A stretch of DNA of 64,000 nt from Tricholoma matsutake (lineage: Eukaryota; Basidiomycota; Agaricomycetes; Agaricales; Tricholomataceae), in the NCBI GenBank assembly GCA_026075535.2, contig AP026548.1, forward strand, positions 8,928,001 to 8,992,000, given 5' to 3'. The notes under the pieces are model-generated. The model was not told where the DNA came from. It saw only the letters and a list, made by a program, of their open reading frames with translations, and did no database searches. The position numbers and the translations under genes were made by a program. Shown here piece after piece: positions 23,100-62,272 of this stretch (position 1 is its first letter; each line of letters opens with the position of its first letter).

Positions 23100-23693
23100 T
23101 CATGCCTAAGTTTGTTGAAGGTCATCTGATAGAGGTCAATGATGGAAGGTTATGTAACATTCACCCAAATTGGCATGATACACAACAACTACCAATAATA
23201 TTATCGCTATTAAATGCCAGTCCAAGAACTACCTGTGTGTTGCTTTCCTCTCTATAAACCCCACTATGGTTTGCGGTACCCTGATGAGTGGTTACCCAAG
23301 TCCCAGTTGTCTCTCCAGGAATTCTCTTATTGTGCAATGGATCTTCTCTGAGACCAGGAGAATATTCCTGAATTTGTTCAATTTGTGCTTGCAGGGTGTG
23401 ATACCAACTGCAATGATGTTCAACACAGAATATTCCTTAACACACAGCAAGGGCTACAGCTCATAGACCCTCGTTCATATATTCAATCCCATGATTATGA
23501 CCCTTGCTGTTTTGAAAGACCTTCCATTCTCAGTTCCCTTGGCCGTCTTTCCAGTTGCTTCATTCAGGGACACTTTGACAAAGGATATTCATCTTCTTGG
23601 AAAAGCTTACAACAATATGTTAAGGCCTGGGAAGTAAACTATTTTTTCTATGCACTGAATGTGTTACAATTTTGCTATCATAACCCACAATGA
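23100..23693 (+). pseudogene. unknown protein fragment downstream of the SNF2-like gene
   Basis: Two adjoining frames look coding. The first contains GFNFMPKFVEGHLIEVNDG and the second LRYPDEWLPKSQLSLQEFSY, then EFVQFVLAGCDTNCNDVQHR. A frame change lies near 23,245 (an intron or a lesion), and one TGA lies near 23,350 where the frame otherwise continues. I do not recognise the family. Confidence 0.4.
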
Positions 23694-24000
23694 CTAAAGC
23701 ATACTCCAGTGAGACTGGGTATTTCATTTTTCTTTCCCTCTGCTCACGACACGACTCATCCTGATGGGACCTTCCGATCTGACTCCCACTGATTGACAGG
23801 CTGCGCCGCAGCACTCCATGACATTGGATGCCTCATGCTAGGCATGAGGATTACTTTTCCATTGTTCTTTCTATATTTACTTGACAAGCTGATTGGACAA
23901 TAAGTAGTCTAGAAACCATATATAAGCTGTAGTTACACTCAGTGTATTCCTCAGCTTGACCTAATTCAATCAACAGTCTTAAACTCAACCAGAACACTCG

Positions 24001-24214
24001 ACAACTTAGAAAGCCTCTAAGTTGTGATAACTCGAACTCGAACTCAACAGTTGAAAAGCCTCCAACTGTGATACACAAACAGATGGTCTACTCAGAAAGC
24101 CTCTGAGTATGGATAGCCATATTGACTAGGGAAGCACCCAAGTCCAGGAAGAACCTGATCCAGTAAGAAAGCCTCTTACTGCGATAACCGATACAGTTGG
24201 AAAGCCTCCAACTG
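24001..24214. repeat. cluster of six hairpins with variable stems and a near-constant 7-nt loop
   Basis: Stems pair at 24,001-24,025 (ACAACTTAG/CTAAGTTGT), 24,047-24,069 (ACAGTTG/CAACTGT), 24,089-24,109 (TACTCAG/CTGAGTA), 24,161-24,181 (CAGTAAG/CTTACTG) and 24,194-24,214 (CAGTTGG/CCAACTG). All five have the loop AAAGCCT; the second has one extra A-C mismatch closing it. A sixth at 24,124-24,144 (GACTAGG/CCAAGTC, one mismatch) has loop GAAGCAC. Most are followed by G-N-GATA. Stem sequences differ while pairing is kept. They lie between a fragment after the SNF2-like gene and an unknown ORF. They may be a retroelement leader, a structured RNA or a DNA-level array. Confidence 0.75.
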
Positions 24215-24269
24215 CAACACATGAAGCCTAGGCTGAGTTGAGACCTATAGTCTTAACAGAATGCAGTTG

Positions 24270-41029: not shown

Positions 41030-41550
41030 TCTCTCTCCCAAATGCAAGGTGGGGGGGTGGTTCTTTCTTTCTTTCAGGTGAGACAGATGTCATGACCACC
41101 TCTTGCTTGCAAATGCGAGGTGGGGGTCATTCTTCATTCATTTCACTCAAAATGGCCGCCATGTCACAATGATGACCCCCTCTTGCTCGCAAACATGAGG
41201 TGGGGGTTGTTCTTCATTTGTTTCACTCAAGACAGCCACCATGTCACAACAACGACCCCCTCTTGCTCGCAAATGCGAGGTGGGGGGTCATTCTTGCTTC
41301 ATTTCACTTGGGATGGCCGCCACATCACGATGACCACCCCCTCTCGCTCGCAAATGCGAGGTGGGGGTTGTTCTTCAGTTGTTTCACTCAAGATGGCCAC
41401 CACGTCACAAAGACAACCCCCTCTCACTCACAAATGCGAGGTGGGGGGTCGTTCTTGCTTCATTTCACTTGGGACAGCCACCACATCATGATGACCACCC
41501 CCTCTCATGACAACGACCCCCTCTCACTCGCAAATGTGAGGTACCATAGT
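41030..41550. repeat. tandem array of seven hairpin-bearing units, ~80 bp period
   Basis: AAATG of the core lies near 41,040, 41,111, 41,191, 41,271, 41,352, 41,432 and 41,532, mostly 80 bp apart. Each unit has CCCCCTCTTGCTCGCAAATG or a variant followed by CGAGGTGGGGG, giving nested pairing CTCGC/GCGAG inside a C-run/G-run. A TTCATTTCACTCAA and GGCCGCCA(C/T)GTCAC spacer follows. Most differences between units look like CG/TG/CA changes. Open frames across it are repeat translations. Confidence 0.8.
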
Positions 41551-42296: not shown

Positions 42297-43109
42297 GGTT
42301 GCCAAGTTTGGCAGCCTACACTAGACTTAGGTTTACTAAAAGACAGGATCAAATTATCTTTGTTGCATGGAAGTAGGAGCCATAAGTTACTACAAATAAA
42401 GGAATAGGAAGTTACTATACCTTCGTTGCATGGAAGTAGGAACGAAGGTTAAGGAATAAAAAATAAGTAATATATAAGAAAAAGATTGACTGTGTAAGTA
42501 AAAGGCCACATCAAGCATAGTGTATGATTTGGGAAGGCCACATCGGGTGTAGTCACAAAATAGGAAGGGACCACATCAATAGGATAATGTCAGCACTGCT
42601 GGATGTGGATAGAAGGGTAATAAGGATGTATGGTGCCATTGCCAGGATGCATGTCGCTGGTTGTTGTTGTTGTATTCACCGGTGGCTGTGCCGGCGGCGA
42701 GGGTGATTGTGTTGGCGGTGTGTGTGGCTGTGTTGGTGCCATGGGAGCATGTTGGCGGCATAGGGTGGCCATAACTCACTGTAACACAGATATTGGTATA
42801 TCTGGTGTTGGTGAGTTGTTTATGCACCATAGGTGGCTATGCTATCGCCGGTGGTAAGGGTGGTTTTGTCAGCGATGTGTGTGGCTGTGCCGGCACTGTG
42901 GAAGTGTTTAATGGTGGTGTAGTAATGTAACACAGACATTGGTATGTCTGGTGTTGGTGAGTTGTTTATGCACCGTAGGTGGCTGTGTCGGTGGCGAGGG
43001 TGGTTGTGTAGGCAATGTGTGTGGTGTGCCGGCGCCGCAGAAGTGTGTAACGGTGGTGTAGGTAAATTAACTTGTCATAATGTCATGAGTCTGTGGGGCC
43101 AGACTTACA
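42297..43109 (-). repeat. 3' LTR of the chromodomain Gypsy, with an internal minisatellite
   Basis: On the minus strand the LTR begins TGTAAGTCTGG at 43,109, right after the polypurine tract AAGTGGGGAGGAG. It contains three copies of a ~150 bp repeat (near 42,679, 42,831 and 42,978) rich in GTGGCTGTG and GGCGAGGGTG, then AT-rich sequence shared with 13,492-13,700. The far end near 42,297 is approximate. Confidence 0.6.
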
Positions 43110-52038: not shown

Positions 52039-52512
52039 GCGAACACACACTGGCACAATAATTACAGGAAGAGATCCGAACAAGTAAAAATGGGAATACT
52101 GCAAACCCCACAAACTCAATCTAAATTGCCTGCGACACAGAGGACTATGGAAAATACTACAGGTACATGTACATGCAGAAATTGAAGAACAGTCGACACA
52201 TGCACTCACATCGTCCACACTGTGCCTACCACAAGGTGGTCAGGCACTTATCAGACATATACATAACACGATTGGGAAACAAACACACGAGTGAAGGGAA
52301 AAGGAGGTTGGAAGGAGGCCTGCAGTCCTAAACAGCTCCAGTGAACAGGACCTCAGGGGGAGCAAATGCCATGGCATGCTGTCTGAGGGGCAAGGACTGG
52401 GGCGAGGGTAGGCAAAAGGGGCCTTTGTTTAGATATTCTAGTATGTAAGGACCATTATAGGGCTCGCCCTGAGAGGTCAAAAAAATAACACAAAAAAAAA
52501 AAAAAAAAAAAA

Positions 52513-53190
52513 ATGCTGCAGATCACTGCACAATGATCACAGCACAAATGAATTTTCAGAACTTCCCAGAACTACATAGAACAGAAAAATGTGAAGTGAC
52601 ACTTGTTGCAGCACTCCCCAGGACTTGGGATGGAGTCAGAGGATGGGAATGCTCCATTGATGTCATAGACAATGTGGTTAATGCTGCAGATCACTGCACA
52701 ATTATTACAGCACAAATGAATTTGCAGAATTTCTCAGAAGTACACAGAGCAGAAAAATGCAAGATGACACTTGTTGCAGCACTCCCCAGGAGTTGTGCTG
52801 GAGTCAGAGGATTGGAACACAATCCATTGAGATCATAGACAATGCAGGTATTGCTGCAGATCACTGCACAACAGAAATACTTGTGCATCCAGAACATCTA
52901 CAACAAACACAGCACAAGAAAAATATATGGCAAGCATTTGATTGTGATCACAGAATGACTATGACAAACACAGCATGCAAAAAAAAATTAACAGTGAGCT
53001 CAGAACGTCTATGACGAATTGACAAACATGGCACATGAAAAATATATGGCAAGAATCTAATTGTGAACTCAGAATGTCTATGACAAATTGACAAACACAG
53101 CCCAAGAAAAACAATTTAATTGGAATCCCAGAATGTGTACAACAAATACTGCACCCAAAATGTACAGCAAAAATTTAACTGTGAGCTCAT
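52513..53190. repeat. ~170 bp tandem repeat, right part, grading into ~80 bp units
   Basis: (A/T)TGCTGCAGATCACTGCAC recurs at 52,513, 52,681 and 52,851. From about 52,885 shorter units follow, each with CAGAATG(T/A)CTATGAC, AACACAGC and AAAAATATATGGCAAG-like blocks. The last unit is cut at 53,190 and seems to resume at 53,934. Confidence 0.7.
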
Positions 53191-60818: not shown

Positions 60819-61660
60819 GTGATCTTTTCTAATATTCATGTCATTCAGAGCACAGAGGCCTATGATATGCTGTCCTTTCGTATGTTGATGTTTTTGTTTC
60901 AAAGTGGCTACAACATGAATATGGCAGAACTTGGTGAGTTCTGCTTCATTTTTCATGATCTTATATTTGATTCTAATCTATATACATGTAGTTTGAAGTG
61001 CCAAATGAGACGAGAGGCCTACGTCAATTTGTTCTTTCGCATTTCGACATTTTCACTTTGTAGGGGTTACAACATACTAGGTATGGCAGAACTCAATGAG
61101 TTCTGCTTCGTTTTTCATGATCTTACATTTGATTCTAATCTATTTACATGTCGCTTAAAGGGCCCAGTGAGACGAGAGGCCTACGCCAATTCGTTCTTTC
61201 GCATTTCGATGTTTTCACTTTGCAGGGGTTACAATTTGGGTATGGTAGAACTCGTTGAGTTGTGCTTTGTTTCTCATGATCCTATATTTGATTCTAATCT
61301 ATTTACATGTCATCTGAAGGGCCTAGTGAGACAAGAGGCCTACGTCAATCCGTTCTTTTGCATTTCGAAGTTTTTACTTTGTAGGGGTTACAACATAGGT
61401 ATGGCAGAGCTCAGTGAGTTCTGTTTCGTTTTTCATGATCTTATATTTGATTCTAGTATGATTACATGTCGTTTGAAGGGCTCAGTGAGACGAGAGGCCT
61501 AAGTCAATCCATTCTTCTGCATCTTGAAGTTTTTGCTTTGCAGATGTTACAATTTGGGTCTGGCAGTTCTGCTTTGTTTCTCGTGATCCTATATTTGATT
61601 CTAATCTAGTTACATGTCGTTAAAATGGCCCAGTGAGTTGAGAGGCTTATGTTGATGTAT
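60819..61660 (+). repeat. tandem repeat of ~159 bp units that keeps one frame open
   Basis: GAGGCCT ends at 61,020, 61,182, 61,341 and 61,500, giving periods of 162, 159 and 159 bp, all multiples of three. An open frame of 227 codons covers four units; each unit reads about RREAY(V/A)N-FFRIS...GYN...MAEL-EFCFVFHDL-FDSNLFTC. A fifth unit (to about 61,648) has a 148 bp period and no longer fits the frame. Each unit also contains CACTTTG(T/C)AGGGGTTACAA, which looks like a 3' splice site. Confidence 0.7.
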
Positions 61661-61989: not shown

Positions 61990-62272
61990 TGGGTTCTTCC
62001 CCCCTCTCTAGTTGTTCCCCTCTCTAGTTGTTCCCCTCTCTAGTTGTTCCCCCTCTCTGGCTGTTCCCTCTCTGTGGTTCTCCTCCCCTCTCCAGTTGTT
62101 CCCCCTTCTCTGGTTGTTCCCCCTATCTGGTTGTTCCCCCCTCTCTAGTGGTTCCCCCCTCTCTAGTTGTGTCCCCCTCTCTAGTTGTTCCCCCTTCTCT
62201 AGTTGTTCCCCCCTCTCTGGGTGTTCCCCCCTCTCTAGTTGTTCCCCCTCTCTAGTTGTTCCTCCCTACATT
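61990..62272. repeat. ~17 bp minisatellite CTCTCTAGTTGTTCCCC
   Basis: About sixteen head-to-tail units of CTCTCTAGTTGTTCCCC(C) with small length changes, preceded by a poly-C run (61,965-61,978). Open frames here are repeat translations. Confidence 0.9.

Follow-up and report, generated by a model that had tools for sequence, protein, structure and literature searches.

The closest described relatives of the element reported here are Tf1 and Tf2 of Schizosaccharomyces pombe, members of the Tf1/sushi group with a chromodomain Ty3/gypsy pol that includes SH3_Tf2-1; Tf1 reportedly also carries a U5 hairpin beside the PBS. According to excerpts of the respective papers, 11–12 nt at the 5′ end of the Tf1 RNA are complementary to the PBS (PMC7175516), and the PBS of Tj1 is complementary to the 5′ end of its mRNA (PMC4600332). 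The element that we refer to as family A shares the pol composition of Tf1 and Tf2 and, like Tf1, has a predicted RNA 5′ end complementary to its PBS and a possible U5 hairpin beside the PBS. It differs in its leader, in which one pentaloop recurs over six hairpins; an array of this kind is not mentioned in the excerpts of PMC7175516 and PMC4600332. The array resembles the packaging signals of RNA viruses of the MS2 type, which, in the excerpt of PMC6281560, are varied stem-loops sharing a coat-protein motif in the apical loop, but it is confined to the LTR leader, whereas the MS2-type signals are dispersed over the genomic RNA. In the open-licence literature searched, we found no same-loop hairpin arrays in LTR leaders. 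The kind of element is already known, and what appears to be new here is the same-loop array inside a leader that is self-priming as judged by sequence. To our knowledge, little is known about how self-primed retrotransposon RNAs join primer and PBS, or about how Ty3/gypsy RNAs are selected for packaging outside the model yeasts.

We analyzed a window of 64,000 nucleotides, by which we mean the whole stretch of DNA under study, on chromosome 11 of Tricholoma matsutake (C11:8928001–8992000). The genome searched comprises 13 contigs and 161,040,721 bases, with 10,203,996 in chromosome 11; the same total and contig 11 figures are given for assembly TMA_r1.1 in the excerpt of PMC10211490. In an alignment of 30 genomic copies, conservation spans about 23662 to 24258, and the following features were assigned:

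23662..24258, + strand: solo LTR of family A, 597 bp, TGTTACAA...TCTTAACA, with edges from the alignment of 30 genomic copies and the flanking target-site duplication
23657..23661, no strand: left target-site duplication GAATG, the identical 5 bp lying directly outside both LTR ends
24259..24263, no strand: right target-site duplication GAATG, a place occupied in full copies by two bases followed by the PBS AGGTCAAGCTGA
23831..23849, no strand: U3 palindrome CCTCATGC-TAG-GCATGAGG, common to family A and a related family B

The ends TGTTA...TAACA and the GAATG duplication are those of an LTR retrotransposon. Family A LTR pairs lie about 6–7 kb apart, and those in element loci L031–L035 are 92–98% identical. 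The comparison of copies supports the view that the hairpin array belongs to the leader portion (R-U5) of a retrotransposon with LTRs, left here as a solo LTR. A sequence-only reading of this DNA had guessed at the leader of a lost retroelement, with which this assignment agrees; it had also placed that leader before an ORF, which is not supported, since the copy is a solo LTR with the target duplication on both sides and without the coding part. The U3 palindrome, written as CCTCATGC-N(1-4)-GCATGAGG, is found at 2594 places in the genome (reversed control, 0), and some of these sites hold two palindromes, 75 bp apart.

Comparisons across copies were based on three alignments: A1, with 48 distinct copies from loci L001–L055 (identical copies merged; L009, L044, L048, L049, L051 and L053 omitted for unmatched end motifs); A2, with 20 of these 48 copies, hand-picked for diversity; and A3, with the 20 hairpin units found at least twice, out of 59. 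Ten leaders, hand-picked among 20 with a PBS, were folded.

The array in the window copy consists of six hairpins:

24001..24025, + strand: hairpin 1, pentaloop AAGCC, 10-bp stem
24047..24069, + strand: hairpin 2, pentaloop AAGCC, one mismatch in the window copy
24089..24109, + strand: hairpin 3, pentaloop AAGCC, 8-bp stem
24124..24144, + strand: hairpin 4, variant loop AAGCA, GACTAGGG-AAGCA-CCCAAGTC, internal stem mismatch
24161..24181, + strand: hairpin 5, pentaloop AAGCC, 8-bp stem
24194..24214, + strand: hairpin 6, pentaloop AAGCC, 8-bp stem

The motif AAAGCCT occurs at 24010, 24055, 24096, 24168 and 24201, together with one GGAAGCACC variant. Around a 7-nt loop, the stems are perfect in four of the five AAAGCCT hairpins (9, 7, 7 and 7 bp), and the hairpin at 24055 has an A-C mismatch adjoining the loop. 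In the RNA fold, the outer A and U of the 7-nt loop pair, which leaves AAGCC as the true pentaloop, with AAGCA as its counterpart in hairpin 4. The earlier description of six hairpins, five with AAAGCCT and one variant, is thus confirmed as to place and loop sequence, while its loop size of 7 nt gives way to 5 nt; the G-N-GATA said to follow most hairpins is present after three of the five, one being followed by TGGATA and the last by neither. The loop-closing pair of hairpin 1 is G-C in 38 of the 48 copies, A-U in 9 and unpaired in 1.

Hairpins with an AAGCC pentaloop and at least seven Watson-Crick pairs number four in the array, with none elsewhere in the window and none on the minus strand, and none arose in 60 dinucleotide shuffles of the whole window. 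When the 214-nt region was shuffled 1,000 times, pentaloop hairpins with any loop averaged 0.01, with a maximum of 1. Genome-wide, two GAAAGCCTC loops spaced 20–50 nt apart were found 624 + 662 = 1,286 times, against 0 for the reversed control, so the pattern exceeds what chance would give. Sense-strand matches (at least 6 bp) are confined to the LTRs in all five element loci, and outside the leaders of families A and B only four scattered single hairpins were seen in 360 kb of the same genome. Chance, or simple repeat duplication without function, is hardly credible as the origin of the array: hairpins 2 and 6 do have nearly identical stems, but the shuffles, the genome-wide count, the pairing kept by shared variants and the conservation across families all argue against it. 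In two copies (L039:464-807 and L040:464-807), the array opens on its 5′ side with an additional, seventh hairpin, ACAACTAAGG-AAGTC-CCTTAGTTGT.

Upstream of the array, two further features would place it within a transcript:

23919..23926, + strand: TATA box TATATAAG, at fixed spacing to AGCTTGACC
23951..23962, + strand: self-primer TCAGCTTGACCT, predicted RNA 5′ end, complement of the PBS AGGTCAAGCTGA that follows the LTR in full copies

In all 36 distinct copies with both motifs, AGCTTGACC begins 34 nt after the start of TATATAAG, and the 12-nt primer segment begins 32 nt after that start; the first two bases of the segment differ among copies. Over 12 nt, the PBS AGGTCAAGCTGA is perfectly complementary to TCAGCTTGACCT of the window copy. 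In the first set of copies, GTCTTAACA stands at the end of 33 of 33 distinct copies and is followed by the PBS in 14, two of which (L004 and L005) have one base changed; in the later set, the PBS follows the LTR in 20 of 48 copies. Exact junctions of LTR end and PBS number 383 genome-wide (control, 0). Priming by a tRNA CCA end requires TGG in the PBS, and the family A PBS lacks TGG. As judged by sequence, the family A primer appears to be a self-primer of the Tf1/sushi type. From the distance to the TATA box we infer that the RNA starts at the primer segment, at about 23951; the RNA of full copies would probably prime itself. The array would then lie in a 5′ untranslated leader, and the scarcity of ATG there (1.9 per copy, against 4.2 predicted from base composition) fits a scanned 5′ UTR.

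Family A has the Ty3/gypsy pol order with a chromodomain integrase: L034 matches Pfam gag, protease, reverse transcriptase, RNase H, integrase, SH3_Tf2-1 and chromo domains, with rve, the core of the integrase, scoring under the Pfam cut-off. The family A Gag has a CCHH-type knuckle motif, CFVCHQPGHRATEH, in L031–L033 and with one change in L034; against Pfam zf-CCHC it reaches only E 0.21, below the cut-off. Protein relatives occur in fungi, among them Moniliophthora, Trametes and Sparassis. Among viral_contigs, the protein scan returned no relative, and the pattern scan gave 98 stretches (101 matches on re-scan), none with two stems of at least 5 bp. In genome_contigs, the protein scan gave 13 distant matches (27–36% identity) on short contigs in bacterial or archaeal records, which are probably contamination.

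Between the chromodomain and the 3′ LTR, L032–L034 contain an extra ORF with zinc-knuckle motifs (L034:6736-7047; best Pfam zf-CCHC E 0.027, below the cut-off). L031 has at the same place a different 198-aa ORF, for which neither a Pfam match nor a relative at E 0.001 was found. A tie between the array and the extra zinc-knuckle ORF was rejected, since L031 has the array but the other ORF.

Folding of the leader suggested a domain closed by long-range pairing, with one local alternative:

23976..23990, + strand: 5′ strand of the long-range closing helix, GTCTTAAACTCAACC, from RNAalifold on 20 copies and the L034 leader fold
24231..24244, + strand: 3′ strand of the closing helix, GGCTGAGTTGAGAC, from the same folds
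24237..24257, + strand: alternative local U5 hairpin GTTGAGAC-CTATA-GTCTTAAC beside the PBS position, from the window-copy fold

In the unconstrained fold of the L034 leader with its PBS, an 11-bp primer-PBS duplex encloses the array; GUCUUAGACUCAACC pairs with GGCUGAGUUGAGAC in a second long-range helix, and each of the six hairpins forms. The energy of this fold, -101.9 kcal/mol (z -7.2), was reached by none of 100 shuffles. Across the ten folded leaders, the primer-PBS pairing has a probability of 0.98–1.0 in every case, the local U5 hairpin ranges from 0.0 to 0.97, and all six hairpins are present in six of the minimum-energy folds. The closing helix has a probability of 0.81–0.98 in eight of nine measured leaders but drops to 0.34 in L004, in favor of a local U5 hairpin (GUUGAGAC/GUCUUAAC); the minimum-energy fold of L042 lacks the closing helix. 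In L004 and L015, the stems of hairpins 2 and 6, which are so alike, pair with each other; the folds of L037 and L039 lack hairpin 6, and the 5′ end of L039 forms a further hairpin. In the window copy, which has no PBS, the primer segment pairs within U5 instead.

We next consider whether this structure is maintained. Across the 48 copies, 99.2% of the pair cells are paired. Doubly changed cells number 50, compared with 13.7 in shuffles and 0–3 when the partners were slid. The doubly changed pairs are modestly raised (6, compared with 3.9 in shuffles; 16 of 500 shuffles reach 6), and the pair types are not (28 versus 30.4). RNAalifold on the 20 copies of A2 gave the same main helices, with five doubly changed pairs. 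Between different hairpins, the 20 units of A3 gave 39 doubly changed cells versus 15.5 in shuffles, 6 doubly changed pairs versus 5.8 and 14 pair types versus 16.3; pairing among these units is 76%, in part because hairpin 4 and a variant of hairpin 1 hold mismatches or bulges. The covariation rests on few, subfamily-level events.

A second line of evidence comes from how widely variants are shared. Dead copies decay neutrally, and widely shared variants should therefore mirror the active lineages. Of five hairpin-stem variants present in at least four copies, none breaks a pair (four are double changes and one is single), compared with 13 of 30 rare ones; in the long-range helices, all four shared variants are one-sided and still pair, while 10 of 12 rare ones break the pair. 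Columns with shared variants make up 54 of 135 in linkers, 9 of 98 in stems, 4 of 26 in the closing helix and 2 of 30 in loops (Fisher p against linkers 2e-4 for loops and 9e-8 for stems), counts in which few and non-independent subfamily events are represented. Rare variants, by comparison, are spread at 0.52 (linker), 0.37 (stem), 0.54 (closing helix) and 0.50 (loop) per column. Position 4 of the loop tolerates C to U. We conclude that the leader array is a genuine RNA structure under selection, carried by an element of a kind already known, in agreement with the earlier suggestion of a structured RNA with conserved pairing.

The same suggestion had offered, as its other branch, a DNA array read through its shape. 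We regard a DNA-level signal, in the form of cruciforms or an array of transcription-factor sites in the LTR promoter region, as very improbable. The U3 part does hold a strong palindrome, but the TATA box is upstream of the array, the array is located between the self-primer and the PBS, its loop is present on one strand only, and the closing helix exchanges G-U, A-U and G-C among copies. Usual palindromic sites have fixed half-sites and a varying center; the array shows the opposite, with varying half-sites and a fixed center.

The same genome contains marY1, a Ty3/gypsy element that is also self-primed according to its sequence. We identified marY1-like elements by LTR and element length, as given in the excerpt of PMC10627285, rather than by a deposited sequence. 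The marY1-like copy L067 has AGAGTTTTCT with the PBS AGAAAACTCT, and its LTR of 426 bp, the length of sigma-marY1, compares with 597 bp in family A, with similarity of at most 10 bp; family A is thus distinct from sigma-marY1. The marY1-like reverse transcriptase is 49% identical to that of family A, and the gag region has a CCHC motif. Neither AAGCC nor AAGCA is present in any of 13 marY1-like leaders extracted from 15 loci (one extracted short). The marY1-like leader is only about 125 nt long, and the one folded, from L067, is near random (z -1.3). As these elements are self-primed by sequence and have no such hairpins, self-priming in general does not require the array. Several marY1-like copies among L056–L070 have long open pol frames of up to 1314 aa, and LTR pairs are up to 99.8–100% identical (L056, L063, L069 and L070), by which this family looks young.

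The related family B was first found as an LTR nested in L035 (L035:3402-4302). A first look gave 1,226 candidate relatives, of which 40 were scored; seven copies were read (six and that of L035), three of them with a PBS. The self-primer TAGTTTAGATCT starts 33 nt after the start of TATAAG, and the PBS AGATCTAAACTA lies two nt past the LTR end, as in family A. The reverse transcriptase of one family B copy is 62–73% identical to those of family A over 348 residues. The LTRs of the two families match only in U3, over 34–38 nt around the palindrome and in stretches of up to 20 nt; in R-U5, no family A position was matched at E up to 1.

The hairpin CACUAAGG-AAGCC-CCUUAGUG is nevertheless present in all seven family B copies (with one base changed in L182) and forms in all seven minimum-energy folds. 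A second, bulged AAGCC hairpin, CUCUAcGCAG-AAGCC-CUGCUAGAG, is well formed in five of the seven, weak in L182 and absent from L186, and AAGCA occurs in two copies, as a 4-bp hairpin in L182 and with a probability of only 0.33 in L183. Shuffled L184 leaders gave an AAGC[CA] hairpin of at least 8 bp once in 5,000, and the fold of the L184 leader with its PBS has a z of -7.25. Between the families, AAGCC was thus kept while everything around it (primer, PBS, stems and linkers) was replaced. This favors a reading in which the loop as such is recognized, and suggests that some component of the cell or of the element reads it. The retention of AAGCC beside a different primer also speaks against pairing between loop and primer. 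We rejected the loop as a PBS mimic or primer partner: the family A PBS contains AAGC, but family B keeps the loop with a PBS lacking it.

These observations bear on two further explanations. First, the array might be purely architectural, with hairpins that compact the leader so that the primer meets the PBS, and loops that are alike as old duplicates. The position of the array between primer and PBS, the varying number of hairpins (extra in L039 and L040) and the short, array-free marY1-like leader are all in line with this. We nevertheless consider it rather unlikely, given that loops hold fewer lineage-level variants than linkers at an equal load of rare variants, and that the stems changed between families A and B and the AAGCC loop did not.

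Second, the AAGCC loops might base-pair with a GGCU(U) toward the 3′ end of U5, either in cis or between two RNAs. A GGCU is present near 24232 (24232–24235) in family A and a GGCUU in family B, and among the 48 copies, a U at position 4 of loop 1 is confined to the three that have GACU instead (L036, L042 and L055). These three look like one subfamily, however, and hence one event; in two of them the U5 base also covaries with the closing helix, and in two a further change in the loop disrupts the match. In many copies, loops 4 and 5 have changed from C to U with U5 unchanged, and a match of 4–5 nt could easily be due to chance. Such an RNA-RNA contact is therefore doubtful at best.

We instead propose, as the probable explanation, that the array is part of the R-U5 leader of a self-primed chromodomain Ty3/gypsy element, in which the RNA would prime itself and the repeated loop is a candidate protein site. 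The first ~12 nt of the full-copy RNA would fold back on the PBS that follows U5 and serve, as in Tf1, as the primer for reverse transcription. The stretch of ~300 nt that separates primer from PBS would fold as a compact multibranch domain, often closed by the second long-range helix. Its six hairpins, or seven in some copies, would share an AAGCC/AAGCA pentaloop and differ in their stems. With less certainty, we take the loop to be a putative protein recognition site: a protein may bind the repeated AAGYM loops several times and thereby package the RNA, hold the primer complex, or both. Gag, with its CCHH-type knuckle, would be the first candidate binder, another RNA-binding factor being the alternative. 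An origin of the six hairpins in old duplications is possible.

More tentatively, the array could be a multivalent RNA handle of up to seven hairpins, coded in its loops, whose stems may drift freely while one protein reads AAGYM; its place inside the self-priming fold would couple binding and packaging to primer-PBS pairing, and retention of the loop between families in which primer, PBS and R-U5 flanks were replaced would be compatible with this possibility. With six parallel hairpins, two families and many hundreds of copies (by pattern count) in one genome, recognition of the loop is directly testable, and the array offers a signature by which leaders of such elements can be annotated in other fungi.

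Elsewhere, the whole window gave no match to Rfam families at gathering score. It does contain tandem repeats at 41094-41506, 42780-43061, 52512-52871, 60920-61646 and 61993-62267, with units of 80/161, 146, 168, 159 and 18/53 bp, respectively.
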